From Streptomyces sp. GS7 (lineage in GTDB: Bacteria > Actinomycetota > Actinomycetes > Streptomycetales > Streptomycetaceae), in assembly GCF_009834125.1 (NCBI RefSeq), contig NZ_CP047146.1, positions 2,597,501 through 2,661,500 on the forward strand: a DNA stretch of 64,000 nt. The letters run 5' to 3'. Numbering within the stretch: the first letter of the stretch is position 1; every line of letters starts with the position of its first letter. The notes under the pieces are model-generated. The model saw only the letters and a program-made list of their open reading frames with translations, did not search any database and had not been told where the DNA came from. The position numbers and the translations under genes were made by a program. Shown here one piece after another: positions 2,608 through 60,174 of this stretch.

Positions 2608-2624
2608 AACTACCACTGCTAGTT
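2608..2624. promoter_or_regulatory. 17-bp palindrome, copy 1 of 3 (putative TetR operator)
   Basis: AACTACCACTGCTAGTT lies 29 bp before the gcdH start. The arms AACTACCA and TGCTAGTT match at 7 of 8 positions around a central C. Near-identical sites occur at 56689-56705 and 60158-60174, each upstream of a catabolic dehydrogenase gene. The local AT-richness and spacing to the start suit a repressor site overlapping the promoter. Confidence 0.7.
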
Positions 2625-2653
2625 TTTCGCGCGAACCCGCCGGAGGCCCCGCC

Positions 2654-3847
2654 ATGTCCGCAACGCCGACCTCGCTTCCGCCGTTCGACCCGGGCGACCC
2701 CCTGGGCATCGACGATCTGCTCACCGACGAGGACCGCGCGGTCCGCGCCACCGTCCGCCGGTGGGCCGCCGACCGCGTACTGCCGCAGATCGCCGACTGG
2801 TACGAGCGCGGCGAACTCCCCGGCATCCGCGAACTCGCCCGCGAACTCGGCTCGATCGGCGCCCTCGGCATGTCGCTGACCGGATACGGCTGCGCCGGCG
2901 CCTCCCACGTCCAGTACGGGCTCGCCTGCCTGGAACTGGAGGCCGCCGACTCCGGTATCCGCTCGCTGGTCTCCGTCCAGGGCTCGCTGGCCATGTACGC
3001 CATCTGGCGCTTCGGCTCCGAGGAGCAGAAGCAGCGCTGGCTGCCGGGGATGGCCTCCGGCGAGATCATCGGCTGCTTCGGGCTGACCGAGCCGGACCAC
3101 GGCTCCGACCCGGCGAGCATGCGGACCTACGCCAGGCGCGAGGGGTCCGACTGGGTGCTGACCGGGCGCAAGATGTGGATCACCAACGGGTCGGTGGCCG
3201 GTGTCGCGGTGGTCTGGGCGAGGACCGACGACGGCATCCGCGGCTTCGCGGTACCGACCGACAGCCCGGGGTTCTCCGCCCCCGAGATCAAGCACAAGTG
3301 GTCGCTGCGCGCCTCGGTCACCAGCGAACTGGTCCTGGACGAGGTACGGCTGCCCGCCGACGCGATGCTGCCCGACGCCGCCGGGCTGGGCGCCCCGCTG
3401 CGGTGCCTGAGCCACGCCCGCTACGGGATCGTCTGGGGTGCGATGGGGGCGGCGCGCAGCTGCTTCGAGACGGCCCTCGACTACGCGCGCACCCGCGAGC
3501 AGTTCGGCCGGCCCATCGGCGGCTTCCAGCTCACCCAGGCCAAGTTGGCGGACATGGCGCTGGAACTCCACAAAGGGGTGCTGCTCGCCCACCACTTGGG
3601 GCGGCGCTTCGACGCCGGGAAGCTGCGCCCCGAGCAGATCAGCTTCGGCAAGCTCAACAACGTCCGGGAGGCGATCGAGATCTGCCGTACGTCCCGGACC
3701 ATCCTCGGCGCCAACGGGATCTCGCTCGAATACCCCGTCATGCGGCATGCCACGAACCTGGAGTCGGTGCTCACCTACGAGGGCACCGCGGAGATGCACC
3801 AGCTGGTGCTGGGCAAGGCGCTCACCGGGCTCGACGCCTTCCGGTGA
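2654..3847 (+). CDS. gcdH: Acyl-CoA dehydrogenase, glutaryl-CoA dehydrogenase type
   Basis: 397 residues. The ATG at 2654 has CGGAGG at 2641-2646 as ribosome site; longer upstream starts lack one and would cover the operator. The enzyme is a FAD-dependent acyl-CoA dehydrogenase. The flavin-binding segment CFGLTEPDHGSDP, the KMWITNGS loop and the C-terminal LTYEGT with catalytic base Glu376 are all present. The N-terminal FDPGDPLGIDDLLT and the SVQGSLAMYAI segment are typical of glutaryl-CoA dehydrogenase, which oxidises and decarboxylates glutaryl-CoA to crotonyl-CoA in lysine and tryptophan breakdown. The call rests on these family hallmarks; a related short-chain acyl-CoA dehydrogenase is the alternative. 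A 17-bp palindrome shared with two other catabolic genes precedes it. Confidence 0.85.
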   Translation: MSATPTSLPPFDPGDPLGIDDLLTDEDRAVRATVRRWAADRVLPQIADWYERGELPGIRELARELGSIGALGMSLTGYGCAGASHVQYGLACLELEAADSGIRSLVSVQGSLAMYAIWRFGSEEQKQRWLPGMASGEIIGCFGLTEPDHGSDPASMRTYARREGSDWVLTGRKMWITNGSVAGVAVVWARTDDGIRGFAVPTDSPGFSAPEIKHKWSLRASVTSELVLDEVRLPADAMLPDAAGLGAPLRCLSHARYGIVWGAMGAARSCFETALDYARTREQFGRPIGGFQLTQAKLADMALELHKGVLLAHHLGRRFDAGKLRPEQISFGKLNNVREAIEICRTSRTILGANGISLEYPVMRHATNLESVLTYEGTAEMHQLVLGKALTGLDAFR

Positions 3848-3940
3848 GCGGCCCTGCCGCTGCTCGCGGGTACCGCCCTTGCCGGGGACGGTGCCGCGGG
3901 CGCCCGGCGCCCGGGCCCCCGGCCGAAACCCCCACGCCGG

Positions 3941-4390
3941 TCAACTCTGGTTGAAGAAGCCGCCGTTGCGGTGCGCGCGGGACTCGCCGGAGACCACCTT
4001 GTAGTCGGCGGGGGTCAGCAGGAACACCCGGGTCGCGACCCGCTCGATGGAGCCGCGCAGGCCGAACGTCAGGCCGGCGGCGAAGTCGACCACGCGCTTG
4101 GCGTCGGCGGGCTCCATGGCCGTCAGGTTGACGATCACCGGGACGCCGTCCCGGAAGAGCTCGCCGATGTTGCGGGCGTCCCGGAAGGAGGCCGGGGTGA
4201 CCGTGGCGATGCGGGTGCCCTGGTCCTGGGCGGCCTCGTCGGCCACCCGGACCCGGGGGTCGGTCACCCAGGGGCTGCCACCCGAGTCCGCGGACTCGGG
4301 TCCCTCGGCGTAGTCGTCGTCGTAGTAGCGCTCGTCATCGTTGTCGTCCACGAGGCCAAGCCAGGCACTCGCCTTGCGCACCGATCCCAT
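3941..4390 (-). CDS. sepF2: SepF-like cell division protein (stand-alone paralogue)
   Basis: 149 residues. The ATG at 4390 follows AGAGGAGG (4397-4404 on the other strand), a near-perfect ribosome site. The N-terminus [16 protein letters not shown] resembles the membrane-binding amphipathic start of SepF proteins. An acidic Tyr/Asp linker follows, then the DUF552 core ([19 protein letters not shown], then FAAGLTFGL). It ends in GGFFNQS, as SepF proteins do. SepF tethers FtsZ to the membrane. Streptomyces carry three homologues; the one in the division cluster is SepF1, and this gene is isolated beside gcdH, as I recall for SepF2 of S. coelicolor. Whether it is SepF2 or SepF3 is inferred from remembered synteny only. 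Confidence 0.85.
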
Positions 4391-4841
4391 TGACGCCTCC
4401 TCTCACCCGCGGTGTCTGTGTTCTGTCCGCCCCTATCGTCGTTCATGAGGCCGAGTGTGTGCCAAGTGGATAGCCGCCGCACGGGGGGTTCGTGACATAT
4501 CTGGTGCAAAGAGGGTGGTGCACCGTCAGGTTGCGTGCCCCGGTGGTGAACTGACAGTACGACGGGGGTCACGGTCGGTACCAGTCCGCAGATGTCGGCA
4601 GGTGGCCGGTGTCGACAGGTTCGGATCCGCGGGGAGCGCGCGGGCGGGCCCAGGGCATATGTCGTCGGTCTTGGCCGCAGGTCTGGGTAAGCCCGATGAT
4701 CGGGTGACTGACCCAGAGGAGTGTCGTTGACGCCGCGGCGGAAACCGCTCCGCTCGTCGACGCGGACCGGGTGGGAGTGCCGGGGCGCCGGGCGTACCGG
4801 CCCACGGGGGCGGGCGGTCCGGCGGCCGCCCGCCCCCGTCG
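4391..4841. other. Intergenic region, no convincing gene
   Basis: About 450 bases between the SepF-like start and the end of the ABC binding-protein gene. It must hold the leftward promoter of the SepF-like gene. A small hairpin (CCCGAT-G-ATCGGG) lies near 4692-4704. A TTG at 4727 with a good ribosome-site-like GAGGAG could start a 45-residue basic peptide, but that frame runs through the terminator at 4804-4839, so I do not call it. Confidence 0.5.
4804..4839. terminator. Rho-independent-type hairpin after the leftward binding-protein gene
   Basis: A perfect 14-bp GC-rich stem (4804-4817 with 4826-4839) around an 8-base loop, lying two bases beyond the stop of the leftward binding-protein gene at 4842. 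There is no U-tract, as is usual in streptomycetes. Confidence 0.75.
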
Positions 4842-5846
4842 TCAGCGGAGCTCCGGCGGGCTGATCCGCGAGGTGGCGATGGCCGAGGGGGCGGTGCCCC
4901 ACTTCTCCAGGATCCGGTCGTAGGTCCCGTCCTCCTTGAGGCGGTTGACCGCGGCCTGGAAGGCGGGTGCCAGCGGTGTCCCCTTCTTGAAGGCGAAGCC
5001 GACGTCCAGGCGCCGGAACTCGTTGAGGAACCTCAGTCCCGGCTGTTGCTTCACGGCGTAGCGCAGCCCGTTGACGGTGCTCATCACCACGTCGCTGCGG
5101 CCCTGCCGGAGCGAGATCCACAGCGCGCCCTGCTCCGCGAAGGTCGTGACGACGTACGGCTTCTTCCCGGCGTCCTTGCAGCGGTGTGCGTTCTCCGCCA
5201 GCGTGGCCTCGAAGGTGGTGCCGGCGCCGGTGGCGACGGTCAGGCCGCACAGCCGGGTCAGTGCGGTGATCTTCTTCAGCGGGCTGTCGGCGCGGACCGC
5301 GAAGCCCTGGCCGTCGTCGACGTAGGTGACGAAGTCGATGGTCCTGCGGCGTTCGTCGGTGACGCCGAAGTTGCCGGTGCCCACGTCGTACTTGCCGCTG
5401 CCCAGGGCCGGGAGGATCGCCTCGAAGCTCGCCACCTCGCGGTGGAGCCGGATGCCGAGGACCCTGCCGACCGCGTCCGCGAAGTCGATGTCCTGGCCGG
5501 CCAGGGTCGTGCCGTCGGGCAGGTAGGTGGCGCCGGGTGGGCTGCCGACGGCGGCGGCGAGGGAGAGGGCGCCGCGGGCGCGGACGCCGGCGGGCAGCAG
5601 CCGTGCCGCGGCCGGGTCCTTGTGGACCGCGGAGACCACGTCCGCGGTGGGGATGCGGGCGTCGGCGGCGGCCGGTCCGGCGTCCCTGGCACCGGACGCC
5701 GCACCGCCCGTACCGCAGGCGGTGAGCGACAGCACCGCGGCCGCCAGCAGGGCTGCGGTACGGGACGGGAGGATGGGGGTCCCCCTGTTCGAGCGAAGCC
5801 GGGAGTGGAGGAGGGGCCGGCGGGCCCGGCGGCTGCGGGTGGTCAT
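4842..5846 (-). CDS. ABC transporter substrate-binding lipoprotein, amino-acid type (SBP 1)
   Basis: 334 residues. A lipoprotein signal peptide ends in the lipobox LTAC with Cys44. The family-3 solute-binding fold follows, with DIDFADAVGRVLGI, DVGTGNFGVTDERR and the terminal LEKWGTAPSAIATSRISPP. Such proteins deliver amino acids or related amines to an ABC permease. The start ATG overlaps the stop of the upstream GNAT remnant as ATGA, so the two are one leftward unit. The n-region of the signal peptide is unusually long: residues about 12-25 are encoded by a dispersed repeat (5771-5811) inserted in frame. Its C-terminus matches that of the second binding protein at 11433 (both end ATSRxxPPxL), so both probably serve the divergent transporter. 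Confidence 0.88.
   Translation of the reverse strand: MTTRSRRARRPLLHSRLRSNRGTPILPSRTAALLAAAVLSLTACGTGGAASGARDAGPAAADARIPTADVVSAVHKDPAAARLLPAGVRARGALSLAAAVGSPPGATYLPDGTTLAGQDIDFADAVGRVLGIRLHREVASFEAILPALGSGKYDVGTGNFGVTDERRRTIDFVTYVDDGQGFAVRADSPLKKITALTRLCGLTVATGAGTTFEATLAENAHRCKDAGKKPYVVTTFAEQGALWISLRQGRSDVVMSTVNGLRYAVKQQPGLRFLNEFRRLDVGFAFKKGTPLAPAFQAAVNRLKEDGTYDRILEKWGTAPSAIATSRISPPELR
5771..5811. repeat. Dispersed repeat, family A, copy 1 (inside SBP 1)
   Basis: The segment contains GGGGGTCCCCCTGTTCGAGC followed by GAAGCCGGGAGTGGAGGAGG. Its core (CCTGTTCGAGC, GAAGCCG) is shared with copies at 44005-44045 and 55811-55854. It keeps the reading frame of the binding-protein gene and adds about 13 residues to the signal peptide. 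Confidence 0.7.
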
Positions 5847-6084
5847 GGTCGGGGGATCTCCAGATGCTTCTCGAACGGCAGCGGGCCGATCGACTCCGGT
5901 GCCGCGGTGAGGTCGAACAGCGGGCGGTAACCGGCGGCGGGATAGAGGCCCTTGGCCTCGGGCTGGCGGGGGCCGGTGGTCAGGTGGACGCGGGTGCAGC
6001 CGCGGTCGGCGGCGTGCCGCTCCAGGGCGTCCAGGACGCGCCGGGCCAGTCCGCGCCGGCGGTGCGCGGAGTGGGTCCAGATCC

Positions 6085-6114
6085 TCCCCCGGACTTCGTC
6101 CGGGGGTACCCCCA
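6085..6114. repeat. Dispersed palindromic repeat, family B, copy 1 (inside GNAT remnant)
   Basis: CTCCCCCGGACTTCGTCC followed by GGGGGTACCCCCAT. It forms a hairpin (CCCCCGGAC/GTCCGGGGG) with a TT loop, then a GGGGGTACCCCC palindrome. It lies between the codons for TAE and RIWTHS of the acetyltransferase. Confidence 0.7.
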
Positions 6115-6255
6115 TGCGTTCGGCGGTGTCGGGGTCGTAGCGGCGGCGCCCCCGGGCGGGGCGAACTCCTCGGCCGGGTACTCCAGGCTCAGGTCGACGG
6201 GCTTGTCGTAGCGGGTGCTGTACTCGTGGGTGAGCCCGTCCAGCAGGGGGCGGGC

Positions 6256-6290
6256 TGGGGGGTCCCCCCGGCCGCAGGCCGGGGGAGGGT
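6256..6290. repeat. Dispersed palindromic repeat, family B, copy 2 (inside GNAT remnant)
   Basis: TGGGGGGTCCCCCCGGCCGC followed by AGGCCGGGGGAGGGT. It combines a GGGGGGTCCCCCC palindrome and a CCCCCGGCC/GGCCGGGGG hairpin, the same layout as the copy at 6085 in inverse order. It lies in the N-terminal coding part of the GNAT remnant. Confidence 0.7.
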
Positions 6291-6354
6291 CGGTGACGGT
6301 GGTGTGACGGATCGTCAGGCAGGCCGCGTGCGGCGGCCGTGGCGCGGCGGTCAT

Positions 6355-6901
6355 CGAGTCGCCTCCGTGTCCAGTGGCGCCGCTCGACGGCGTACGAGCG
6401 CGCCGGGGAAGGGAAGTTACGGGACGGGCGAAACCGAGAACAGAGTGCGGGGGCGGGACGGGGCAACGGGGCGGAGCGAGGGGAGGGGTGCGCCCTACGA
6501 GGGCGCGGGGTGTGAAGGCGCGCGGCGGGAAGGGGGGTCCGGACCGGCCGGGAGGGCCGCGGGGACCGGGAGAACCGCGAAACGGCCCGGCCTGGGGCGG
6601 CGGGCTTCAGGGCAGGGGATCAGCTCAACAGGACGCGGACCACACACGACCGAAGTCGATGTGGTCGCGGGTGACCAGCCGCTGCCATGGATGCATGGAA
6701 CCAAGTGGAACAGGCATCCGTTTCCGCGTCAACCGCCGAGTGATCCATCGCTCACCGTACGGACGGCGGGCCAACCACCCTTGACAGCGGGCCGTGTTCA
6801 CCCCATAGCCTCAAGGACCGGTCGTGCTGAGGGGCGCGGCCCGTTCCGCCCGTGTGAAGGCGCGCGACTCCCGTGATCGACAGCGTCCACGGAGCCTTCG
6901 C
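6355..6901. other. Divergent intergenic region of the ABC transport locus
   Basis: About 550 bases without a credible gene. The left part (6400-6630) is featureless GC-rich DNA. The right part is less GC-rich and holds an inverted repeat GGATGC (6689-6694) and GCATCC (6714-6719), with CCATGG and ATGCAT palindromes inside, a plausible operator. The promoter at 6781 follows. Confidence 0.5.
6781..6811 (+). promoter_or_regulatory. Probable promoter of the ABC transporter operon
   Basis: A perfect TTGACA at 6781-6786 is followed by CATAGC at 6804-6809 (17-base spacer) or TAGCCT at 6806-6811 (19-base spacer). It lies about 90 bases before the first permease start and fits a housekeeping-sigma promoter. 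Confidence 0.55.
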
Positions 6902-7759
6902 ATGTCTTCCGACACCCTCGACGCCCCCGCCGTGGCCCCGCCCGGCGCACCGGACGGTGCCGTACCGCGCATCGTGCCGCGGCGCCGCACCGGCCAGTGG
7001 GCGGCGGCCGTCCTCGTCCTCGCCCTGGCGGCCCTGGCCGTCACGTCCGTGGTCCGCAATCCCGCCTTCCAATGGGACGTGGTCGCCGACTACTTCCTGA
7101 CCGGCGCGGTGCTGCGCGGTCTGTGGCTCACCCTCTGGCTGACCGCCGTGGTGATGGTGCTCGGCTTCGCGCTGGGCACCCTGCTCGCGGTGCTGCGGCT
7201 GTCCGGCAACCCCGTGCTGCGCGGCGTCGCCCGCGGCTACGTCTGGCTGTTCCGGTCGATGCCGATCCTGGTGCAGCTGCTGTTCTGGTTCAACATCGGT
7301 GCGCTGTACCCGGTCGTCCTCGGCGTCCGCACGGTCGACCTGCTCGGCCCGGTCGCCGTCGCCGTCATCGGGCTCACCCTGCACGAGGCCGCGTACGCCG
7401 CCGAGGTCGTCCGCGGCGGCGTGCTGTCCGTCGACAAGGGGCAGGTGGAGGCCGCGCAGTCGCTGGGGCTCGGGCGCTGGCGGCGGCTGCGCCGGATCGT
7501 GCTGCCGCAGGCGATGCGGTCGATCGTGCCGCCGGCCGGGAACATGCTGATCGGCACGCTCAAGGGCACCTCGATCGTCAGCGTCATCGCGGTCCAGGAC
7601 CTGCTCTACTCCGTCCAGTTGGTCTACCACCGCACCTACGAGGTCGTCCCGCTGCTGCTGGTGGCGACCCTCTGGTACGTCCTCGTCACCTCCCTCCTCG
7701 GCGTCGGTCAGCACTACATCGAGCGGCACTACGCCCGCGGTGCGGCCGGTGTCCGGTGA
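6902..7759 (+). CDS. ABC transporter permease, polar amino acid family (permease 1)
   Basis: 285 residues. ATG 6902 has GGAG at 6891-6894; the frame is open further upstream but with no ribosome site. After a hydrophobic segment (about 32-50) come the HisM/HisQ-type permease helices. The EAA-loop motif that contacts the ATPase is present (EAAQSLGLGRWRRLRRIVLPQ, starting near residue 184), and the C-terminus YIERHYARGAA is typical of the family. It is the first gene of a five-gene rightward operon; its stop overlaps the next GTG start (GTGA at 7756). Permease 2 at 9644 is a clear paralogue, so the pair probably forms a heterodimeric channel. Confidence 0.9.
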   Translation: MSSDTLDAPAVAPPGAPDGAVPRIVPRRRTGQWAAAVLVLALAALAVTSVVRNPAFQWDVVADYFLTGAVLRGLWLTLWLTAVVMVLGFALGTLLAVLRLSGNPVLRGVARGYVWLFRSMPILVQLLFWFNIGALYPVVLGVRTVDLLGPVAVAVIGLTLHEAAYAAEVVRGGVLSVDKGQVEAAQSLGLGRWRRLRRIVLPQAMRSIVPPAGNMLIGTLKGTSIVSVIAVQDLLYSVQLVYHRTYEVVPLLLVATLWYVLVTSLLGVGQHYIERHYARGAAGVR

Positions 7760-9660
7760 GGCCGGCCGCGCGCGGCGCCGTACGGCCGTCGGTGGTGATC
7801 GTGGGCGCCGGCCCGCGGGGCACCGGGATCCTGGAACGGATCGCCGCCAACGCCCCCGAGCTCTACGGCGATACGCCGCTCGACCTGCACCTGGTCGATC
7901 CGCACCCGCCCGGCGGCGGCCGGATCTGGCGCCGCGACCAGTCCCCGCTGCTGTGGATGAACTCCCTGTCCGAGGACGTCACCATGTTCACCGACGAGAG
8001 CGTCGAGTTGGCGGGGCCGGTGCGGCCCGGCCCCTCGCTCGCCGAGTGGGCGCGGGCGGTGCGGGCCGGCGAGATCCCGGTCGCGCCGGACCTCGCCGAC
8101 GGCGTCGCGGCGCTGGGGCCGCAGGACTTCGCCGGGCGGCACCTGCAGAGCGCCTATCTGCGCTGGGTGTACGAGGAGGCGGTGGCCGCGCTGCCGCCGC
8201 GGGTCGCCGTGCACGAGCACCGGCGCACCGCGCTGCGGATCTCCGGGCCGCGCGACGGGCGCCAGCAGGTGTGGCTGGCGGGCCGCCCCACCCCGCTGCG
8301 GGCCGATCTGGTCGTCCTGGCGCTCGGCCATCTGGAGTCGGAACTCTCCGAGGAACAGCGGGAATTGAGCGGCTTCGCGGCCCGGCACGGGCTGACGCAC
8401 CTGCCGCCGGCGTTCACCGCCGACAGCGATCTGAGCGCGCTGCGGCCGGGCGAGCCGGTGCTGGTGCGCGGTTTCGGACTGGCCTTCGTCGACCTGATGG
8501 TGCTGCTGACCGAGGGGCGCGGCGGCACGTACACCACGGGAGCCGACGGGAAGTTGACGTACCGGCCCTCGGGCCGCGAACCGGTCCTGCACGTCGGATC
8601 GCGGCGCGGGGTGCCCTACCACTCCAAGATCGGCTACCGGCTGTCCGGTGAACGGCCGCCGCTGCCCCGGTTCTTCGGGCCGCGGCAGGTCGACGAGCTG
8701 CTGGCCCGGCCCGGCGGCCCGGACTTCCGGCGCGACGTGTGGCCGCTGATCGACAAGGAGCTGGGCTTCGCCCACTACCACCGGCTGTTCACCGCGCACC
8801 CCGAACGCACCCGGATGCACCGGCCGGACTTCGAGGAGAAGTACGCCGCCGCCGACCCGGGCAGTGCCGCACTCCAGGCCCTGGTCGCCGCCGCGGTCCC
8901 GGACCCGGCCGACCGGCTCGACCTGGACGCGCTGGACCATCCGCTGGACGGGGTGCGCTACGCGGACGGCGCGGCCCTCCAGGAAGGGCTGCGCGGCTAC
9001 ATCGAGGCCGACCTCGCCCGCCGCCACGACCCCGCGCACAGCCCGGACCTGGCGGTCTTCCTCGCGCTGCTGTCGGTCTACGGGCAGCTGGTCCGGATCG
9101 GCGACCGCGGCCCCTGGTGGCACGGCTTCTTCAGCTATCTCGCCTCCGGTCCCCCGGGACCGCGGCTGCGGCAGCTGCTCGCGCTCTCCCGGGCCGGGGT
9201 GGTGCGCTTCCTGGGCGCCGGCCTCACCGTCACCGCCGACGAGGCCCACGGGGTGTTCCGCGCCACCGGCGCGAGCGTGCCCGGGGAGTCGGTCGCGGCG
9301 CGCGCACTGGTGGAGGCGCGGCTGCCGGAGCCGACCGTCGCGCACACCCGGGACCGGCTGCTGCGCGCCCTGTACGCCGAGGGCGCGGCGGCGACGCCCG
9401 CCGGCCTGCTGGCCGTCGACCCCGCCGACGGCCGGATCCTGGACCGGGCCGGCCGCCCGCATCCGCGCCGCTTCGCCCTCGGCCCGCACACCGACGCGCG
9501 GGCCGGCGGCGCCTTCACCCGCCCCCGTACCAACGCGCCCGCCTTCCGGCAGAACGACGCGAGCGCGCGCGCCCTGCTCACCTTCCTCCGGGACCGCACC
9601 GCCCCGCCGGTACCCGTCCCCGCACTCACCCCCGAGGACCCCGATGCCGCTGACCAGTGA
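7756..9660 (+). CDS. FAD/NAD(P)-binding protein embedded in ABC transporter operon
   Basis: 634 residues from GTG 7756, which overlaps the permease stop as GTGA. The N-terminus carries a dinucleotide-binding motif VVIVGAGPRGTG (about residues 13-24), with a second flavoprotein-like segment DLVVLALGHLESE further on. This fits the NAD_binding_9 family (PF13454), whose chemistry is largely unassigned; distant relatives include N-hydroxylating monooxygenases. No signal peptide or membrane helix is visible, so it should be cytoplasmic. Being between the two permease genes and coupled to both (the next start, 9644, lies inside its 3' end) argues that it acts on the imported compound. Proposed role: oxidation or N-hydroxylation of an amino acid-like substrate. 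This is inference. Confidence 0.75.
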   Translation: MRPAARGAVRPSVVIVGAGPRGTGILERIAANAPELYGDTPLDLHLVDPHPPGGGRIWRRDQSPLLWMNSLSEDVTMFTDESVELAGPVRPGPSLAEWARAVRAGEIPVAPDLADGVAALGPQDFAGRHLQSAYLRWVYEEAVAALPPRVAVHEHRRTALRISGPRDGRQQVWLAGRPTPLRADLVVLALGHLESELSEEQRELSGFAARHGLTHLPPAFTADSDLSALRPGEPVLVRGFGLAFVDLMVLLTEGRGGTYTTGADGKLTYRPSGREPVLHVGSRRGVPYHSKIGYRLSGERPPLPRFFGPRQVDELLARPGGPDFRRDVWPLIDKELGFAHYHRLFTAHPERTRMHRPDFEEKYAAADPGSAALQALVAAAVPDPADRLDLDALDHPLDGVRYADGAALQEGLRGYIEADLARRHDPAHSPDLAVFLALLSVYGQLVRIGDRGPWWHGFFSYLASGPPGPRLRQLLALSRAGVVRFLGAGLTVTADEAHGVFRATGASVPGESVAARALVEARLPEPTVAHTRDRLLRALYAEGAAATPAGLLAVDPADGRILDRAGRPHPRRFALGPHTDARAGGAFTRPRTNAPAFRQNDASARALLTFLRDRTAPPVPVPALTPEDPDAADQ

Positions 9661-11367: not shown

Positions 11368-11432
11368 CCCCGACGCTCCCTGCCCCCGGCACCCGCCCAC
11401 CTCGCCCCGCCCCGCCCACGAGGAGACATCCG

Positions 11433-13551: not shown

Positions 13552-13569
13552 GCCCCGCCGCCCCCGCTG

Positions 13570-15024: not shown

Positions 15025-15044
15025 CCTCCGCGCGTATGATGCGG

Positions 15045-50647: not shown

Positions 50648-50672
50648 CCACCCGTCACGCCGTGACGGGTGG
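50648..50672. terminator. Terminator hairpin between convergent genes
   Basis: CCACCCGTCAC (50648-50658) and GTGACGGGTGG (50662-50672) form a perfect 11-bp stem around GCC, followed by CCCTTT. It can serve the small gene at 50301 and the convergent gene ending at 50762. Confidence 0.8.
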
Positions 50673-50761
50673 CCCTTTGTGTGCCCGGCGTGTGCCCGGC
50701 CCCGCGCGCCCGGATGCGGTCCGCTCCCGCCGGCGCTCCCCCCGGCACCCCGCCCCGCGCG

Positions 50762-52039: not shown

Positions 52040-52207
52040 GCGGAGCCCCTCCCGGACCGTACGGTTGACCCCCGGCATGGTAGCGACGGGAGCGGGCGCC
52101 GTTCGCGGCACCCGTCGGCGGTGCGGCGGGGGAGAGGCGGTCTTCCGCTTGCCGATCTTGGCGCAGTACCGTCCTGGCCGTACCAGCCTGCCAAGGGGAG
52201 GACCGCC

Positions 52208-53599
52208 ATGAGGGACACCGCCTCCGCCGCGCCCGAACGGTGCGGGGGGACCCCCGTCGCGACCAGGGCCGCGGCGCGACTGGACCGGCTGCCGCCGTCC
52301 CGGTGGCACCGCCGGATCACGCTCGTCGTCGGTATCGGCGCCTTCTTCGACCTCTACGAGATCTTCCTCGGCGGCGTGCTGGCGGCGGTCCTCGCCGCGC
52401 AGTGGAACCTGGGCCACACGGCCAAGTCCTGGGTGATCGCCGCCGGGTTCCTGGGCATGTTCGCCGGCGCCAACGTCCTGTCCGTGCTGGCCGACCGGTT
52501 CGGCCGGCGCCGGATGCTCCTGGTCAACCTGGGCTGCTACTCGCTGTTCTCGCTCGCCTGCGCCGTCGCGCCGAACCTGTCCTGGCTGCTCGCGCTGCGC
52601 TTTCTCGCCGGTCTCGGGCTCGGTGCCGAACTCGTCCTGGTGGATACCTATTTGGCGGAGTTCCTCCCGCGGGCGGTGCGCGGTCGCTACCTCGCCTACG
52701 CGTACACCTTCGGGTTCGTCGGGGTCCCGGTGGCGGCCCTGCTCGGCGCCCGGCTGGTGGCCGGGCACCAGCTGCTGGGCGTCGACGGCTGGCGCTGGCT
52801 GCTGATCGCGGGTGCGCTGGGGGCCGGCTTCCTCCAGCTGATGCGCCGACAGCTCCCGGAGTCACCGCGGTGGCTGGTGGTCCAGGGGCGGGACGCGGAG
52901 GCCCGGCGGATCGTGGCCGGCATCGAGGAGCGGGTGGCGGCGGAGACCGGGCAGAGCCTGCCGTCCGTACCGGAGGCGGAGACGGTGCCGGAGCGCCGGG
53001 TGCCGCTCGGCGAGATGTTCCGCGGCGACCACCGCCGGCGGACGCTGATGTGGTGGGTCTTCCAGGTCCTGCAGACGGTCGGCTACTACGGCTTCGGCTC
53101 GCTGGCGCCGGTGGTGCTGACGGCCAAGGGGTACACGGTCACCGATTCGCTGCTCTACGCCGCGCTGAGCTTCGGCGGCTATCCGATCGGCTCCGCGCTG
53201 TCCATCCCGCTCATCGACCGGATCGAGCGCCGCACGCTGATCATCGCCTCCGCGCTCGGCATCGCGGCCTGCGGCCTGGCCTTCGGCTTCGCCGCCGCCC
53301 CCTGGGCCGTCGTCGCCTTCGGCTTCCTGCTGACGGTGTGCAGCAACGTCTTCTCCAACGCCTTCCACGTCTACCAGACCGAGCTCTTCCCGACCGGCCT
53401 GCGCAGCAGCGCGATCGGCATCGCCTACTCGCTGTCCCGGCTCACCTCGGTCGTGCTGCCGTTCGTCGCGCTGACCGTGCTGACCGACCTCGGACCGGCC
53501 GCGGTGTTCGCCGGGTCCGCGGTGCTGATGGTGCTGCTGTGCCTGGACGTGGCGCTGCTGGGGCCACGCAGCACGGGGCGGAGCCTGGAGCGGATCTGA
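52208..53599 (+). CDS. MFS transporter, metabolite:H+ symporter (NiaP/sugar-porter-like)
   Basis: 463 residues from ATG 52208 with GGGGAGGA before it. Twelve helices are apparent. TM1 has GIGAFFDLYEIFLGGVLAA with acidic residues typical of the NiaP/aromatic-acid symporter group. The loop motif ADRFGRRRM is standard. TYLAEFLPRAVRGRY in the fourth-fifth helix loop and LPESPRWLVVQGRDAEA before the central loop also fit this group. Substrates are nicotinate, aromatic acids or sugars. The convergent GntR/hmgA genes suggest, weakly, an aromatic acid. Confidence 0.88.
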   Translation: MRDTASAAPERCGGTPVATRAAARLDRLPPSRWHRRITLVVGIGAFFDLYEIFLGGVLAAVLAAQWNLGHTAKSWVIAAGFLGMFAGANVLSVLADRFGRRRMLLVNLGCYSLFSLACAVAPNLSWLLALRFLAGLGLGAELVLVDTYLAEFLPRAVRGRYLAYAYTFGFVGVPVAALLGARLVAGHQLLGVDGWRWLLIAGALGAGFLQLMRRQLPESPRWLVVQGRDAEARRIVAGIEERVAAETGQSLPSVPEAETVPERRVPLGEMFRGDHRRRTLMWWVFQVLQTVGYYGFGSLAPVVLTAKGYTVTDSLLYAALSFGGYPIGSALSIPLIDRIERRTLIIASALGIAACGLAFGFAAAPWAVVAFGFLLTVCSNVFSNAFHVYQTELFPTGLRSSAIGIAYSLSRLTSVVLPFVALTVLTDLGPAAVFAGSAVLMVLLCLDVALLGPRSTGRSLERI

Positions 53600-53602
53600 G
53601 AG

Positions 53603-53621
53603 CCGGGCGGCCGGAGCCCGG
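53603..53621. terminator. Short hairpin between convergent MFS and GntR genes
   Basis: CCGGGC and GCCCGG pair around GGCCGGA just after the MFS stop; a second GGCCGC pair overlaps. A weak terminator candidate. Confidence 0.4.
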
Positions 53622-53639
53622 TGGCCGCACGCGGCGGGG

Positions 53640-54389
53640 TCAGTGCGCCTCCAGCGTCACGGTGAAGGAGAACCGGTCGCCGCGGTAGTGGATCCGGGCG
53701 ACGTCGAGCACCCGCCCGGACTCGTCGTAGGTGATGCCGGTGTAGTGCAGGATCGGGCTGAGCAGCGGCACCTGGAGCAGCCGGGCGGTCTCCGGGTCGG
53801 CCAGCCGGGCCTCGACGGTGTCGGTGATCCGGCTGATGCGGACGCCCACCGCGTCCCGCAGCACCTTGGTCATCGGCCAGCGCTCCAGGTCCGCGAGGTC
53901 GATCCGGGCGGCGACGTCGGGGCGGACGTAGTTCCGTGCGTGGTTGGTGGGTTCGCCCGACGCCTCGTCGCTGCGCAGTCGCCGGAAACCGGCCACTTCG
54001 TCCATGTCCGGGAAGAATTCGGATAGTTCGGGAGGTACGGAGACCGGGCCGTGCTCCAGCAGGGCGGTCCGCATCCCGGACTGCTGGGCCACGATCGCGT
54101 CCACCGACCCGAGCAGCCGGACCGGCGCACCGCGCTGCGCGCTCGGCTCGATGAACGTGCCGCGGCGCCGGTGCCGGCTGATCAGCCCTTCCGACTCCAG
54201 CTCCTTGAGGGCCTGGCGCATCGTCAGCACGCTGACGCCGTAGTGCTCGGCGAGCGCGTCCTCGGTGGGGAGCCGGAGCGGCGCCTCGGGCGAGCGCCCC
54301 AGTATGGAAGCGCGCAGGGACTGCGAGACCTGGTACCACAGCGGCAGTTTGCGGTTCAGGGCGATCGAGTCGGGAGCGAAGGTGGTCAC
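53640..54389 (-). CDS. GntR family regulator, HutC subfamily
   Basis: 249 residues from GTG 54389. The winged helix (PLWYQVSQSLRASILG, RLPTEDALAEHYGVSVLTMR, GLISRHRRRGTFIEP) is followed by a UTRA ligand domain (ERWPMTKVLRDAVGVRISRI, PILHYTGITYDESGRVLDVARIHYRGDRF). HutC-type proteins respond to small carboxylates. It starts 18 bases after the hmgA stop in the same direction, so hmgA-gntR is an operon, and it is the best candidate to bind the 28-bp palindrome in front of hmgA. Confidence 0.9.
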   Translation of the reverse strand: MTTFAPDSIALNRKLPLWYQVSQSLRASILGRSPEAPLRLPTEDALAEHYGVSVLTMRQALKELESEGLISRHRRRGTFIEPSAQRGAPVRLLGSVDAIVAQQSGMRTALLEHGPVSVPPELSEFFPDMDEVAGFRRLRSDEASGEPTNHARNYVRPDVAARIDLADLERWPMTKVLRDAVGVRISRITDTVEARLADPETARLLQVPLLSPILHYTGITYDESGRVLDVARIHYRGDRFSFTVTLEAH

Positions 54390-54406
54390 AGAGCGATCCC
54401 CGGATC

Positions 54407-55732
54407 CTACGGGCGGAAGTGGCGCTGAAGACCCTGCCATACGTCGTCGTAGCCGCGCTGGAGGTGTCCGGCGTCCCGGGCCTGCGCGGTGAGCGTCAGC
54501 GGCCAGCGGGTCTCGAACATGAAGGCCAGCCCGTTGTCGATCTTCTGCGGGGCGAGTTCGGCGGCGCTGGCCCGCTCGAAGGTCTCCCGGTCGGGGCCGT
54601 GCGCGGACATCATGTTGTGCAGCGAGCCGCCGCCCGGAACGAAACCCTCCGCCTTGGCGTCGTAGGCGCCTTCGATCAGGCCCATGTACTCGGTCATCAC
54701 GTTGCGGTGGAAGTACGGCGGCCGGAAGGTGTCCTCGCCGACCAGCCAGCGCGGCGCGAACACCACGAAGTCGACGCCCGCCAGGCCCGGGGTGTCCGAG
54801 GGGGAGGTGAGCACCGTGAAGATCGACGGGTCCGGGTGGTCGTAGCTGATCGAGCCGATGACGTTGAAGCGGCGCAGGTCGTAGACGTACGGGACGTGGT
54901 TGCCGTGCCAGGCGACGACGTCCAGGGGCGAGTGGTCGTAGGTGGCCGTCCAGAGGTTGCCGCCGAACTTGTTCAGGACCTCGACCGGGCCGTCGACGTC
55001 CTCGTAGGCGGCCGTCGGGGCGAGGAAGTCCCGGGCGTTGGCGAGGCCGTTGGCGCCGATCGGGCCGAGGTCGGGCAGCTCGAAGGGGCGGCCGTAGTTC
55101 TCGCAGACATAGCCGCGCGCGGTCGCGTCCAGCAGCTCGACGCGGAAGCGCACACCGCGCGGGATCAGCGCCACATGGCCCGGTTCGGCCCGCAGCAGGC
55201 CGAACTCGGTGCGCAGCAGCAGCCCGCCGCGCTCCGGCACGATGAGCAGCTCGCCGTCCGCGTCGCTGAACACCCGCCGGTCCATGGAGGCGTTGGCGTG
55301 GTAGAGGTGCACCGCCATACCGGCGCGCTGGGTGGCGTCGCCGTTGCCGCCCAGGGTCCACAGGCCGTCCACGAAGTCCGTCGGGTCGGCGGGCTCGGGG
55401 AGCGGGTTCCAGCGCAGCCGGTTGGGGTCGGGCAGGCACTCGGTGAACGGCGCGGAGCGGATCTCGCCCCGGTTGGCGCGGAGGAACGGCGGGTGCGCGG
55501 CCGACGGGCGGATGCGGTAGAGCCAGGAGCGCCGGTTGTGGCGGCGCGGTTCGGTGAAGGCCGAGCCGCTGAGCTGCTCGGCATACAGGCCGAGGGGGGC
55601 CCGCTGCGGGGAGTTGCGGCCCACCGGCAGTGCCCCGGGGACGGCCTCCGAGCTGTGCTCGTTGCCGAAGCCGGAGGAGTAGGCCAGCCCCTCGGCCGTC
55701 TTCCTCGCCTGCTCGTTGCCCGTACCAGTCAT
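54407..55732 (-). CDS. hmgA: Homogentisate 1,2-dioxygenase
   Basis: 441 residues from ATG 55732 with GGGAG nearby. It opens the aromatic ring of homogentisate in tyrosine and phenylalanine breakdown. Sequence landmarks are [33 protein letters not shown] and the iron-binding region [14 protein letters not shown] (His and Glu ligands) with the third ligand His in [15 protein letters not shown]. The length matches the family. It is followed by the GntR gene and preceded by a strong inverted repeat at 55762-55789. Maleylacetoacetate isomerase and fumarylacetoacetase genes are not in the window. Confidence 0.96.
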
Positions 55733-55761
55733 CGCGCGCTCCCGCCGTTCACGGAACTCAA

Positions 55762-55789
55762 GGAATCCTATGCAAGACCTTAGGATTCC
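55762..55789. promoter_or_regulatory. 28-bp inverted repeat upstream of hmgA
   Basis: GGAATCCTA and TAGGATTCC form a perfect 9-bp inverted repeat around TGCAAGACCT, 29-57 bases before the hmgA start. The size and symmetry fit a dimeric repressor, most likely the HutC-type protein encoded by the operon's second gene. Confidence 0.65.
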
Positions 55790-55810
55790 GGGCGGTGGGT
55801 CGTCAACGAT

Positions 55811-55854
55811 GGGGGGGACCTCCCTGCGCGAGCAAAGCCGAGAACCTGGGGGAG
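55811..55854. repeat. Dispersed repeat, family A, copy 3 (intergenic)
   Basis: GGGGGGGACCTCCCTGCGCG, then AGCAAAGCCGAGAACCTGGG and GGAG. It matches the copies at 5771 and 44005 over most of its length and lies between hmgA and the next TetR gene. Confidence 0.68.
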
Positions 55855-55921
55855 TCCGGCCGGGATGGCCGGATCCCCGCCCTCGGCCATCCCGGCTCCG
55901 TACGGCGGGCAAGATGACCGT

Positions 55922-56620
55922 GTGCAGCCATCGACGCCTCAACCCGCCCCCCGGTCCGCCCCCACGACCGCGTCCACCACCCCGTCCGCCGCCCCCGCCG
56001 CCGGACCGTCCGCCGCCCCCTCCCCGCTCCGCCGCGCGCCCGTGCAGCGGCGCAGCGCCCAGCGCCTGGCCCGGATCCTCGACGCCTGCGCCGAGCTGCT
56101 GGACGAGACCGGATACGAGGACCTCAGCACCCGCGCCGTCGCCGGCCGCGCCGGGGTCCCGATCGGCTCCGTCTACCGCTTCTTCCCCAACAAGCGCGCC
56201 ATGGCGGAGGCGCTCGCCCAGCGGAACCTCGACGCGTACGCGGACCGGATCACCACCCGGCTGACCGCCCCCGGGCAGCCGCCGGGCTGGCGCGGCGCGA
56301 TGGACGTGGTGGTCGACGAGTACCTCGCCATGAAGCGCACGGTGCCGGGCTTCGCCCTGGTCGAGTTCACCGTCCCCGCCCCGCGCGAGACGCGGCAGGC
56401 CAACTACGAGGTCGCCGACCGGCTGCTGGGCCTGCTCGCCGGACGGCTCGGCCTGGACGCCGCCGACGACCGGCTGCGCACCGCCTTCCTCGTCGGCGTG
56501 GAGACCGCCGACGCGCTGCTCCAGCTCGCCTTCCGCACGGACCCCGGCGGCGATCCGGCGATCGTCGCGGAGACGAAGGAGCTGCTGCGGGCCTATCTGG
56601 TGCGGTATCTGGACGCGTAG
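55922..56620 (+). CDS. TetR family regulator upstream of the aldehyde dehydrogenase
   Basis: 232 residues from GTG 55922. An unusually long Pro/Ala/Thr-rich N-terminus (about 45 residues) precedes a clean helix-turn-helix ([40 protein letters not shown]). The C-terminal domain has the helical pattern of the TetR_C_17-like group. It lies 168 bases before the aldehyde dehydrogenase gene in the same direction, but the site in between (56689-56705) is the same as those near another TetR gene, so it may or may not control that gene. Confidence 0.88.
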
Positions 56621-56688
56621 GCCAGTGGGGCGGAGGTGGCGCGGGGGTACCGGGCACACGGGTGGCCGAGAGCTGCTGGCGGCCACGA

Positions 56689-56705
56689 AACTACCGGCGC
56701 TAGTT
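56689..56705. promoter_or_regulatory. 17-bp palindrome, copy 2 of 3 (putative TetR operator)
   Basis: AACTACCGGCGCTAGTT, arms matching at 7 of 8 positions around a central G; it extends to AAACTA...TAGTTT (56688-56706). It lies 83 bases before the aldehyde dehydrogenase start. Confidence 0.7.
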
Positions 56706-56788
56706 TGGATGGTGTCCCCCTGGGAGGCGCCCGGGGCGCCCCCTAGGGTGCGGAAGAGGACGACCAGGCGGCCCGGGAGGACCACGAC

Positions 56789-58183
56789 GTGAAGCAGCAC
56801 GACGCGATGTACATCGACGGCGGCTGGCGGCCCGCCGAGGGCAGCGGCCGGATCGAGGTCGTCAACCCGGCCGACGAGCAGGTGATCGGCACCGTCCCGG
56901 CCGGATCCGAGGAGGACGTGGACGCCGCGGTGCGGGCCGCCCGCGCCGCGCTGCCCGGCTGGGCCGCCACTCCGCCCGCGGCGCGCGCCGACCGGCTGGC
57001 CGCGCTGCACGACCAACTCGTCGCGCGCACCGAGGAGATCGCCGCGACCGTCACCGCCGAACTGGGCTCGCCGCTCGCCTTCAGCACCGCGGTGCACGCC
57101 GGGGTGCCGCTCGCGGTCTGCGGCTCGTACGCCGAGCTGGCCCGGTCGTGCGCCTTCGAGGAGACCGTCGGCAACTCCACCGTGCTGCTCGAACCGGTCG
57201 GCGTGGTGGGCGCGATCACGCCGTGGAACTATCCGCTGCACCAGATCGTCGCCAAGGTCGCCCCGGCGCTGGCGGCGGGCTGCACGGTCGTGCTCAAGCC
57301 GGCCGAGGACACCCCGCTGGTGGCCCAGCTGTTCGCCGAGTGCGTCGACGCGGCCGGGTTCCCGGCCGGTGTCTTCAACCTCGTCACCGGCCTCGGCCCG
57401 GTCGCCGGCCATGCGCTCGCCGAGCACGACGGCGTCGATCTGGTCTCCTTCACCGGCTCGACGGCCGTCGGCAGGAAGATCGGCGCCATCGCGGGCGCCG
57501 CGGTCAAGCGGGTGGCGCTGGAGCTGGGCGGCAAGTCCGCCAACGTCATCCTGCCCAGCGCCGACCTCGGCAGGGCGGTGGCCGTCGGCGTCGCCAACGT
57601 CATGGCCAACTCCGGCCAGACGTGCAGTGCGTGGACCCGGATGCTGGTCCCCACGGACCGCTACGACGAGGCGGTCGCGCTGGCCGCCGCCGCGGTCGCC
57701 AAGTACGTCCCCGGCGAGCGGGTCGGCCCGCTGGTCAGCGCCCGGCAGCGGGACCGGGTGCGCGGCTACATCGAGCGGGGCATCGCCGACGGCGCCACGG
57801 TCGTCGCGGGCGGCCCGGAGGCACCCGCCGAGGTCGGCTACTACGTCACCCCGACCGTCTTCGCGGACGTCGCCCCCGAGATGGCCATCGCCCAGGAGGA
57901 GATCTTCGGCCCGGTGCTGTCGATCCTGCGCTACGAGGACGAGGACGACGCAGTACGGATCGCCAACGGCACCGTCTACGGGCTCGCCGGCGCGGTCTGG
58001 GCCGGCGACGACGCCGAGGCGGTCGCCTTCGCCCGCCGCCTCGACACCGGGCAGGTCGACATCAACGGCGGGCGCTTCAACCCCCTCGCCCCGTTCGGCG
58101 GTTACAAGCAGTCGGGGGTGGGCCGCGAGCTGGGCCCGCACGGCCTGGCCGAGTACCTGCAGACGAAGTCGCTCCAGTTCTGA
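56789..58183 (+). CDS. NAD(P)-dependent aldehyde dehydrogenase
   Basis: 464 residues from GTG 56789, with GGGAGGA at 56775-56781. The fold is complete: [12 protein letters not shown] (cofactor binding), [11 protein letters not shown], the base Glu245 in LELGGKS and the nucleophile Cys279 in SGQTCSAW. The C-terminal [15 protein letters not shown] is typical of the class. It oxidises an aldehyde to an acid; the exact substrate is not evident. The adjacent zinc alcohol dehydrogenase 133 bases downstream suggests the pair oxidise an alcohol stepwise. Confidence 0.93.
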
Positions 58184-58229
58184 GCCGGTCGGACCCCTGG
58201 CGGAGCGCCGGCGCCGCCCGGCCCGGCCG

Positions 58230-58261
58230 CCCGCCGCCCCGTCATCCCGCCGCCCCGTCAT
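58230..58261. repeat. Tandem 16-bp duplication
   Basis: CCCGCCGCCCCGTCAT occurs twice in direct tandem in the gap between the aldehyde and alcohol dehydrogenase genes. Probably a simple replication slip. Confidence 0.7.
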
Positions 58262-58315
58262 CCCGCCCGCTCACCCCGTCACCCCGCCGTCCTCCGCCCG
58301 CCCCGAGGAGATCCC

Positions 58316-59416
58316 GTGGTCCGCGCCGCCGTACTGCCCGCCGTCAACGCCCCGCTCCAGATCACCGAGATCGAGCTGCCGGAGCCGGGGCCGGGCCAGG
58401 TCCGCATCCGGCTCGCCGCCGCCGGTGTCTGCCACTCCGACCTGTCGCTGTCCAACGGAACGCTGCGGCAGCCCGCTCCGGCCGTGCTCGGGCACGAGGG
58501 CGCGGGCACCGTCACCGCGGTCGGACCGGAGGTCACCGGCGTCGCCCCCGGCGACCGCGTCATCCTCAACTGGGCCCCGTCCTGCGGGAGCTGCCGGTTC
58601 TGCGAGCTGGCCGAGCCCTGGCTGTGCGCCCACTCCGGGCGCGCCGGCGAAACCCCCTACGCCACCCGCGCCGACGACGGCAGCCCGCTCTACGCCGCGC
58701 TGGGCACCGCCGTCTTCGCCGAGGAGACCGTGGTGCCCGAGCGGGCCGCGCTGCCGCTGCCCGACGGGGTGCCGCTGGCCGACGCGGCGCTGCTCGGCTG
58801 CGCGGTGCTCACCGGCTGGGGCGCGGTGCACCACAGTGCCCGGGTGCGGGCGGGGGAGTCGGTCGCGGTGTTCGGGGTCGGCGGGGTGGGGCTGGCCACC
58901 GTGCAGGCGGCGCGCATCGCGGGGGCGGGCACGATCGTGGCGGTGGACGTCTCGCCGGAGAAGGAGGAGCTGGCGCGGGCGGCCGGGGCCACCGACTTCG
59001 TGGTCGTGGGCGAGAACGGGTCTTCCGGAAAGGAGTGCGCCCAGCGGATCCGCGCGCTGACCGGCGGGTTCGGCACCGATGTCGCGGTGGAGTGCGTGGG
59101 CCGCGCCGACGCGATCCGCACCGCCTGGTCCGCCACCCGGCGGGGCGGCCGGACGACCGTGGTGGGCATCGGCGGCAAGGAGCAGCAGGTGGCGTTCTCC
59201 GCCCTGGAGCTCTTCTACTTCGGCCGGACGCTCTCCGGCTGCGTCTACGGCAACAGCGACCCGGCGCGCGATCTCCCCGTCATCGCCGGACAGGTCCGCT
59301 CCGGCGCGCTCGACCTCTCCGCCCTGGTCACCGACCGGATCGGGCTGGACGGCATCCCCGACGCCTTCGAGGCGATGCTCGCGGGGAAGGGCGGCCGGGC
59401 GCTGGTCGTCTTCTGA
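58316..59416 (+). CDS. Zinc-dependent alcohol dehydrogenase (class III type)
   Basis: 366 residues from GTG 58316 with GAGGAG at 58305-58310. The catalytic zinc ligands Cys39 (GVCHSD) and His60/Glu61 (GHEGAG) are present, as is the structural-zinc lobe Cys90, Cys93, Cys96 and Cys104. The Rossmann motif GVGGVGLATVQ follows. It interconverts alcohols and aldehydes with NAD. With the upstream aldehyde dehydrogenase it forms a likely alcohol-to-acid oxidation unit. Confidence 0.93.
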   Translation: MVRAAVLPAVNAPLQITEIELPEPGPGQVRIRLAAAGVCHSDLSLSNGTLRQPAPAVLGHEGAGTVTAVGPEVTGVAPGDRVILNWAPSCGSCRFCELAEPWLCAHSGRAGETPYATRADDGSPLYAALGTAVFAEETVVPERAALPLPDGVPLADAALLGCAVLTGWGAVHHSARVRAGESVAVFGVGGVGLATVQAARIAGAGTIVAVDVSPEKEELARAAGATDFVVVGENGSSGKECAQRIRALTGGFGTDVAVECVGRADAIRTAWSATRRGGRTTVVGIGGKEQQVAFSALELFYFGRTLSGCVYGNSDPARDLPVIAGQVRSGALDLSALVTDRIGLDGIPDAFEAMLAGKGGRALVVF

Positions 59417-59471
59417 GGCGCCCTGGGGAGCCGGTCGCGGTCCGGGGCGGCGCGCGGCCGGCGGGGCAGGT

Positions 59472-60128
59472 CTATGGCCGGGGCGGGCCGCCGGGCGGGG
59501 CGAGCTCCGGGTGGTGCAGCGTCAGGCCGTCCACCAGCGCGAGCAGTCCCGCCTCGAACGCGCCCTCGTCGACCCGGCGTTGATGCTCCGCCAGGAGGTG
59601 TGCCTGACCCAGGTGCGGATAGGCGTCGGGGTCGTAGGCGCCGGGGTCGTCGACGAAGCCGCGGGCGAACGAGCCCAGCGCGGAGCCCGCGACGAAATAG
59701 CGGACCATGGCGCACACCCGGGTGGCCTGTGCGGGTGGCCAGCCCGCCCCCACCATGCCGCCGAACGCCGCGTCGGCCATCTTCAGCCCGGCGGGGCGCC
59801 GGCCGGGGCCCTGGGCGAGGAACGGCACGATGTGCGGATGGGCGGCGAGCGCCGCGCGGTAGGAGCGGGCCCAGTCGAGCAGTCCGGCGCGCCAGTCCCC
59901 GCCGCGCTCGAACGTCGACACGTCGACCTCGGCGATGACCGTGTCCGCGACCGCGTCGAGGATCTCGTCCTTGGTCGTGAAGTGGTTGTAGAGCGACGGC
60001 CCGCTCACGCCCAGCTCCGCCGCCAGCCGCCGGGTGGAGAGCGCCGCGAGCCCGTCCGCGTCGATCAGCGCCAGCGCGGTGGTGACGATGCGCTCGCGGC
60101 TCAGCAGGGGCTTGCGGGGTCGGGCCAT
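59472..60128 (-). CDS. TetR family regulator divergent from an acyl-CoA dehydrogenase
   Basis: 218 residues from ATG 60128. The HTH is typical of the TetR/TetR_C_1 group (RIVTTALALIDADGLAALST, LGVSGPSLYNHFTTKDEI), and the C-terminal half contains the EGAFEAGLLALVDGL end of that subfamily. The 78-base gap to the acyl-CoA dehydrogenase contains the 17-bp palindrome at 60158-60174. This is the best candidate for the protein that also binds the copies before gcdH and the aldehyde dehydrogenase. The regulon is inferred. Confidence 0.9.
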   Translation of the reverse strand: MARPRKPLLSRERIVTTALALIDADGLAALSTRRLAAELGVSGPSLYNHFTTKDEILDAVADTVIAEVDVSTFERGGDWRAGLLDWARSYRAALAAHPHIVPFLAQGPGRRPAGLKMADAAFGGMVGAGWPPAQATRVCAMVRYFVAGSALGSFARGFVDDPGAYDPDAYPHLGQAHLLAEHQRRVDEGAFEAGLLALVDGLTLHHPELAPPGGPPRP

Positions 60129-60157
60129 GACGCACATAGTAGGGGCTGCCAGCTAAA

Positions 60158-60174
60158 AACTAGCACCGCTAATT
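60158..60174. promoter_or_regulatory. 17-bp palindrome, copy 3 of 3 (putative TetR operator)
   Basis: AACTAGCACCGCTAATT, arms matching at 6 of 8 positions around a central C, centred in the 78-base gap between the divergent TetR and acyl-CoA dehydrogenase genes. It covers the region where both promoters should lie. Confidence 0.75.

Follow-up and report, generated by a model that had tools for sequence, protein, structure and literature searches.

Several regulators from the TetR and other families are known to control acyl-CoA, lipid, or glutarate metabolism. AccR of Streptomyces avermitilis is described as a TetR-family repressor involved in short-chain acyl-CoA homeostasis, with the operator GTTAA-N6-TTAAC and the targets accD1A1-hmgL-fadE4, echA8, echA9, and fadE2 (PMC10933834). 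For mycobacteria, KstR is reported as a TetR-type repressor of a cholesterol and lipid regulon, with a palindrome ahead of many lipid-degradation genes (PMC1995591). Dedicated control of glutarate catabolism by GcdR and CsiR has been described for Pseudomonas putida (PMC6667623). Here, we analyze a 64,000 nt stretch of the Streptomyces sp. GS7 genome (contig NZ_CP047146.1, positions 2,597,501 to 2,661,500; hereafter the window), in which three copies of a 17-bp palindrome are found close to catabolic genes. One copy adjoins the gene for a TetR-type protein, here called TetR1, and we consider it very likely from comparative sequence analysis that TetR1 is the repressor which uses these palindromes as operators.

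Three palindromes in the window

The palindromes were identified by reading the sequence and by pattern searches, and have no assigned strand. They are located before gcdH (2608..2624, AACTACCACTGCTAGTT), before an aldehyde dehydrogenase gene (56689..56705, AACTACCGGCGCTAGTT), and in the gap between two divergent genes (60158..60174, AACTAGCACCGCTAATT), which code for TetR1 (59472-60137, reverse strand) and an acyl-CoA dehydrogenase (ACD, 60206-61357). The copies are present as the initial annotation had described them: their spacing is the same, and each of them fits AACTASCNNNGCTARTT without a mismatch. The overall operator consensus is AACTASC-N3-GSTARTT. Also as described there, the sites are close upstream of the starts of three catabolic dehydrogenases, at distances of 29 nt (gcdH, ATG at 2654), 83 nt (aldehyde dehydrogenase, GTG at 56789), and 31 nt (ACD, ATG at 60206). 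The third copy is indeed found in the gap beside a TetR gene, 20 nt from the TetR1 start at 60137. The start at 60128 that had been assigned to this gene is an alternative ATG, and we used 60137 instead; the divergent gap is thus 68 nt (77 nt with 60128).

No further place matches AACTASCNNNGCTARTT with up to 3 mismatches in the window (6 strand matches, corresponding to the 3 places). Shuffled windows gave a mean of 1.25 matches under this threshold, and 2 of 100 shuffles reached 6, so that this loose count is weak evidence by itself. In the complete genome (G000; 9.07 Mb, single contig), AACTASCNNNGSTAGTT was found at 18 places with up to 2 mismatches: two window sites (0 mismatches), the third window site (1 mismatch), and 15 others (2 mismatches). 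The three window sites are thus the only places within 1 mismatch, and the motif is not found at random positions genome-wide, which had been named as an outcome that would contradict the initial annotation. Using a first-order Markov model derived from the window sequence, 0.0047 exact matches to AACTASCNNNGSTARTT are predicted per genome, compared to 3 observed. The three window sites are outside of long ORFs, and 8 of the 12 two-mismatch places that were examined are within them. These two-mismatch places look like chance matches, and we rejected them as regulon members. One of them (at 513731; L005:1501-1517) is 37 nt upstream of an elongation factor-type GTPase gene, and this is probably also due to chance.

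The palindrome and TetR1 in other genomes

The association between the palindrome and TetR1 was analyzed in 199 genomes of the genus, with the motif scored at 0 mismatches and TetR1 orthologs defined as matches with E <=1e-30. The exact motif is present in 165 genomes (reversed control motif: 13 of 199) and TetR1 in 173. Both are found in 163 genomes, TetR1 alone in 10, the motif alone in 2, and neither in 24 (Fisher p 6.7e-21, not corrected for relatedness). Nine of the 10 genomes with TetR1 alone have one-mismatch sites, the exception being G145. In eight of them a site is beside TetR1; it is 17-20 nt from the TetR1 match in six genomes according to the coordinates and likewise in G002 and G021 according to the locus sequence. 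In the ninth (G094), a one-mismatch site was seen at gcdH alone. Among 20 loci examined from the one-mismatch search, 17 are before TetR1/ACD, gcdH, aldehyde dehydrogenase, or thiolase genes, and 3 are elsewhere.

Among the sites listed for the genus sample, 114 distinct exact sites from 57 genomes were classified, 83 of them by their fetched context and 31 by a distance of less than 60 nt to the TetR1 coordinates (those of G039 and G133 being taken from separate searches). They are located at TetR1/ACD (54 sites), thiolase (27), gcdH (22), aldehyde dehydrogenase (10), and secretory lipase (1) genes. Across the genus, the sites thus recur upstream of the same genes, which supports the proposal of a local regulon of gcdH, aldehyde dehydrogenase, and ACD, and adds a fourth target to it, a 3-oxoadipyl-type thiolase. 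For the example at L083:2772-3959, the two best models are PRK09050 (523.7 bits, cut-off 605) and pcaF (517.6 bits, cut-off 597), both scoring below the cut-off. A Hydrolase_4-type hydrolase gene begins within 400 nt across the operator from the thiolase gene at 15 of the 27 thiolase sites (e.g., L083:2772-4910). In the genome of strain GS7, the best match to the thiolase has 58% sequence identity, and no close ortholog was thus found. The single lipase site (G155:C22:4242; L036:75-1517) precedes a secretory lipase ORF (PF03583) by 40 nt, and this ORF is possibly an extra member of the regulon.

Sites beside TetR1 were searched within 160 nt around the TetR1 start in 29 loci (L158-L186) and in 43 named loci with 4-kb flanks (L201-L243). 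With up to 2 mismatches, sites were found in 29/29 and 35/43 loci, respectively, and 2 more of the named loci have a 3-mismatch site. Two genomes (G184 and G047) carry TetR1 without an adjoining ACD match. A degenerate site with 3 mismatches is left there, and exact sites are present before the aldehyde dehydrogenase and thiolase genes.

Of the 26 genomes of the genus which lack TetR1, 20 were followed up (all except G150, G156, G158, G165, G180, and G186). A gcdH match is present in 17 of them, with 18 copies in total. No site with up to 4 mismatches was found within 400 nt upstream (less at contig ends) for 16 of the 18 copies. The other two copies, with 63% and 65% identity, have one 4-mismatch match each. 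This is supporting but not decisive evidence, as an exact site at gcdH is also absent from many genomes in which TetR1 is present. The aldehyde/alcohol dehydrogenase gene pair is kept in G088 and G138, the two genomes examined for it, and has no site within 230 nt. In these genomes (L311 and L312), from which both TetR1 and ACD are absent, the pair directly adjoins a TetR gene of the type found at 61455-62138 in the window, which may have taken over.

A similar operator is found beside TetR1 in other genera of the family. TetR1 matches, some of them weak or partial, were obtained in 94 of 101 family genomes and in 14 of 17 genera. Allowing 2 mismatches, a site beside TetR1 was found in 13 of 15 loci taken from these genera (L314-L328). 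ACD and thiolase genes are consecutive beside TetR1 in seven loci (L314, L316, L319, L320, L324, L326, and L328), with the operator AACTTGC-N3-GCTAGTT. The remaining loci have thiolase (L315), ACD (L318 and L323), ACD together with aldehyde/alcohol dehydrogenases (L321), aldehyde/alcohol dehydrogenases alone (L327), or no target match (L317, L322, and L325) beside TetR1. Outside of the family, two sites are arranged in tandem beside TetR1 in each of the two Actinomadura records; ACD, aldehyde dehydrogenase, and alcohol dehydrogenase matches are consecutive beside TetR1 in G455; and G469 has sites before aldehyde/alcohol dehydrogenases and before another acyl-CoA dehydrogenase. In G464 (L331), ACD (72%), gcdH (69%), and a BadI/MenB-like protein scoring below both cut-offs are encoded consecutively beside the TetR gene. 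Genes that are apart in the window thus adjoin TetR1 elsewhere. A pattern search across the class matched 54 of 296 genomes, including some outside of the family, a breadth at which short matches also arise by chance. The row of BadI/MenB-like, gcdH, and acyl-CoA dehydrogenase genes (L308:1-3938 and L331 of G464) hints at alicyclic acid or pimeloyl-CoA breakdown in the organisms concerned.

The recognition helix was compared across 151 aligned rows of the TetR1 type, among which some loci are represented twice. Most rows have the stretch VSGPSLYNHF. Distant TetR1 relatives (53-58% identity) mostly have VQAASLYSHY or VQAASLYGHY, and a different palindrome, AACCGAAC-N3-GTTAGGTT, is found alongside them. 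It is present with up to 1 mismatch in 13 of the 14 distant loci (L295-L306, L308, and L310) and with 2 mismatches in L305, a count which is partly circular because the consensus was read from the same loci. Its absence from all six compared loci with the LYNH helix, which have an operator of the TetR1 type within 1-2 mismatches, is not circular. The two palindromes share a 3-nt center and differ in the third base pair from it. At the position of Gln38 of TetR, TetR1 and its close relatives have Gly, and the distant type has Ala. Recognition helix and operator thus appear to change together across TetR relatives, as a correlation only. In several loci of this sister group (L295-L306, L308, and L310), an acyl-CoA dehydrogenase of about 38-40% identity is encoded nearby.

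The initial annotation had linked the palindromes to TetR1 by inference. This link is now strongly supported by the co-occurrence in 199 genomes, by gcdH and aldehyde dehydrogenase genes which are devoid of sites where TetR1 is missing, by a neighboring TetR which persists in motif-less genomes (see below), and by the difference in helix and operator.

Genes, mechanism, and pathway

The 397-aa product of gcdH (2654..3847, forward strand) has acyl-CoA dehydrogenase domains from Pfam, and its six best matches among solved structures are all named glutaryl-CoA dehydrogenase (up to 608 bits). Compared to the NCBIfam model GlutCoADH_Des, it scores 191.9 bits, below the cut-off of 470. An MFS transporter gene (878-2521) upstream of gcdH is also found there in many other genomes, including those which lack TetR1. 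The aldehyde dehydrogenase (56789..58183, forward strand; 464 aa) matches PF00171 with 523 bits; none of the NCBIfam matches listed for it reaches its cut-off. It is followed by a zinc-type alcohol dehydrogenase gene (58316..59416, forward strand; PF08240, PF00107). The two genes are also adjacent in other genomes and probably form one operon. TetR1 (59472..60137, reverse strand), the proposed binder of all three sites, has the domains PF00440 (TetR_N) and PF02909 (TetR_C_1). Its score for PF00440 (47.7 bits, cut-off 24) assigns it to the TetR family, and named relatives with up to 96% identity are from Streptomyces. ACD (60206..61357, forward strand; 383 aa) has acyl-CoA dehydrogenase domains from Pfam, and short-chain acyl-CoA dehydrogenases are among the solved structures nearest to it. 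Two further TetR-type genes are encoded on the forward strand of the window, one upstream of the aldehyde dehydrogenase gene (55865..56620; PF00440, PF17928) and one following ACD (61455..62138; PF00440, PF17932).

We propose that a TetR1 dimer binds between the promoter and the start codon of the TetR1 gene itself, of ACD, of the aldehyde/alcohol dehydrogenase pair, and of gcdH. TetR1 would repress these targets along with its own gene. It would be released from the DNA by a metabolite of the pathway, probably an acyl-CoA or the corresponding acid. The scattered catabolic genes would thus be induced together.

Which pathway is induced is the weakest step of this proposal. Tentatively, it is beta-oxidation of short or dicarboxylic acyl-CoAs which ends in glutaryl-CoA, although we would not put this as high as an even chance. 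Dicarboxylic or omega-oxidised acids are suggested because gcdH, an oxoadipyl-type thiolase, and alcohol/aldehyde dehydrogenases are among the targets. The same regulator might instead serve the general catabolism of short-chain fatty acids or lipids, or the breakdown of lysine via glutarate, and we judge this to be an evenly balanced matter. GcdH also acts in lysine breakdown, ACD is nearest to short-chain enzymes, and the hydrolase neighbors at 15 of the 27 thiolase sites as well as the listed site before the secretory lipase gene also speak for this alternative. On the other hand, the thiolase has its best matches to 3-oxoadipyl-CoA models, though under their cut-offs, and gcdH adjoins ACD in G464. 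General short-chain or lipid catabolism is at least as likely as the breakdown of dicarboxylic or omega-oxidised acids. A more specific idea, which we regard as rather unlikely, is a regulon for acids of the oxidised lipid or polyester type (omega-hydroxy and dicarboxylic acids, e.g., monomers of plant cutin or suberin) with a dicarboxylyl-CoA as inducer. Lipases would then free the acids, and the alcohol and aldehyde dehydrogenases would complete the omega end. ACD and the 3-oxoadipyl-type thiolase would shorten the chain, with glutaryl-CoA dehydrogenase handling the odd-chain end, and the dicarboxylyl-CoA would free the repressor from the DNA. Genes that adjoin TetR1 in other genera would stand apart in Streptomyces, with the operator retained.

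That TetR1 activates its targets rather than repressing them is improbable. The TetR-family protein AtrA, with a gap of 425 bp, is reported to have raised the expression of its neighbor 4-fold, but in the same report all five TetR-family proteins with divergent gaps below 200 bp repressed their neighbor (PMC3511530). The 68 nt gap between TetR1 and ACD belongs to this short-gap class, and repression is thus favored according to that pattern. In addition, operators are downstream of candidate -10 elements (all promoters being predicted only), where bound protein should block. The candidate gcdH promoter (2567..2596, forward strand), read from the sequence, consists of TTGCCC (2567-2572) and TACCGT (2591-2596), separated by 18 nt. 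Several relatives have TGGACG-N17-TAACGT upstream of the gcdH operator, aligned with this element (TTGCCC-N18-TACCGT), and in the aligned upstream regions TATAGT is found 4 nt before most of the thiolase operators shown. With such -10 elements, the operator would overlap with or be downstream of the transcription start, which fits repression.

It is still less probable that the operators are owned by one of the other two TetR proteins of the window, even though both of their genes adjoin target genes and the 61455-62138 type follows ACD in many relatives. Of the 20 followed-up genomes which lack TetR1, 14 retain that type, 13 of these without the exact motif, and we thus rejected it as operator owner. 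The 55865-56620 type is disfavored: it was matched in 8 of the 43 named loci (in 4-kb flanks, with no genome-wide search), and sites beside TetR1 are far more common. In the Actinomadura loci, the site and a TetR1-type protein occur together without matches to either of these two proteins. Finally, the idea that the palindromes arose by chance or have another role is hardly credible: the motif is short and some shuffled windows equaled the 3-mismatch count, but 3 exact sites contrast with the 0.005 expected in the genome, and the same placement recurs in other genomes.

Several observations weigh against TetR1 as the common regulator of these genes. The reversed control pattern is more frequent than the motif at 2 mismatches in the GS7 genome (139 vs. 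18) and at 1 mismatch in 14 of 14 genomes; because of the former, we regard as informative only the sites that match exactly or nearly so, together with their positions. The co-occurrence statistic ignores phylogeny. Two genomes have the motif without a TetR1 match, G050 (82% complete) and G130. In the latter, the contig with the site begins inside the alcohol dehydrogenase gene, and another contig carries the 61455-type TetR gene and ends about 0.5 kb past it. TetR1 may thus be hidden in the assembly gap in this case. Two loci from other genera (L317 and L327) carry TetR1 with no site beside it. The same applies to 6 of the 43 named loci, even at up to 4 mismatches; all six also lack an adjoining ACD match, and autoregulation is thus not universal. 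The regulon is also uneven, with each genome having a subset of the targets: the 57 listed genomes have 22 exact sites at gcdH and 10 at aldehyde dehydrogenase genes.

Comparison with known systems

In the open-access full-text literature, which excludes most subscription journals, we found no study of the TetR1 regulator or its operator. TetR1 has 3321 homologs at E <=1e-30, and the names among the 120 that were listed are generic. The analysis provides a testable set of operator, regulator, and targets for a TetR which is present in 173 of 199 genomes of the genus. It ties glutaryl-CoA breakdown to ACD and aldehyde oxidation and, in other genomes, also to thiolase and lipase-type genes. The relatives represent a natural series for the upkeep of a regulon when its genes are apart, and for the joint change of TetR helix and operator. 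Acyl-CoA supply feeds polyketide production, and TetR1 may therefore be a useful engineering handle.

TetR1 resembles the tetracycline repressor TetR in its Pfam architecture (PF00440 and PF02909), in its matches to class A structures of TetR, which extend over most of the protein, and in the divergent, putatively autoregulatory layout. The TetR operator tetO is a palindrome with a 3-nt center and a CTA-x-C arm similar to that of the proposed TetR1 operator. However, TetR1 reaches only 93.6 bits for PRK13756 (cut-off 265), and its proposed targets are catabolic enzymes at several distant sites rather than an efflux pump. When aligned by eye to class A, the TetR1 residues at the positions of the tetracycline contacts His64, Asn82, and His100 appear to be different.

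As with AccR, scattered acyl-CoA genes would be under one TetR-family protein via one palindrome, but the motif is AACTASC-N3-GSTARTT and not GTTAA-N6-TTAAC. KstR likewise combines one TetR-type protein with one palindrome at many degradation genes; none of the 8 NCBIfam matches of TetR1 (E <=1e-3) is to the KstR model NF033703. Control of glutarate or glutaryl-CoA breakdown would be shared with GcdR and CsiR, which, unlike TetR1, belong to the LysR and GntR families. Judged from these comparisons, the putative regulon is of a TetR-type catabolic kind that is already known, whereas this particular regulator and its operator appear to be new.

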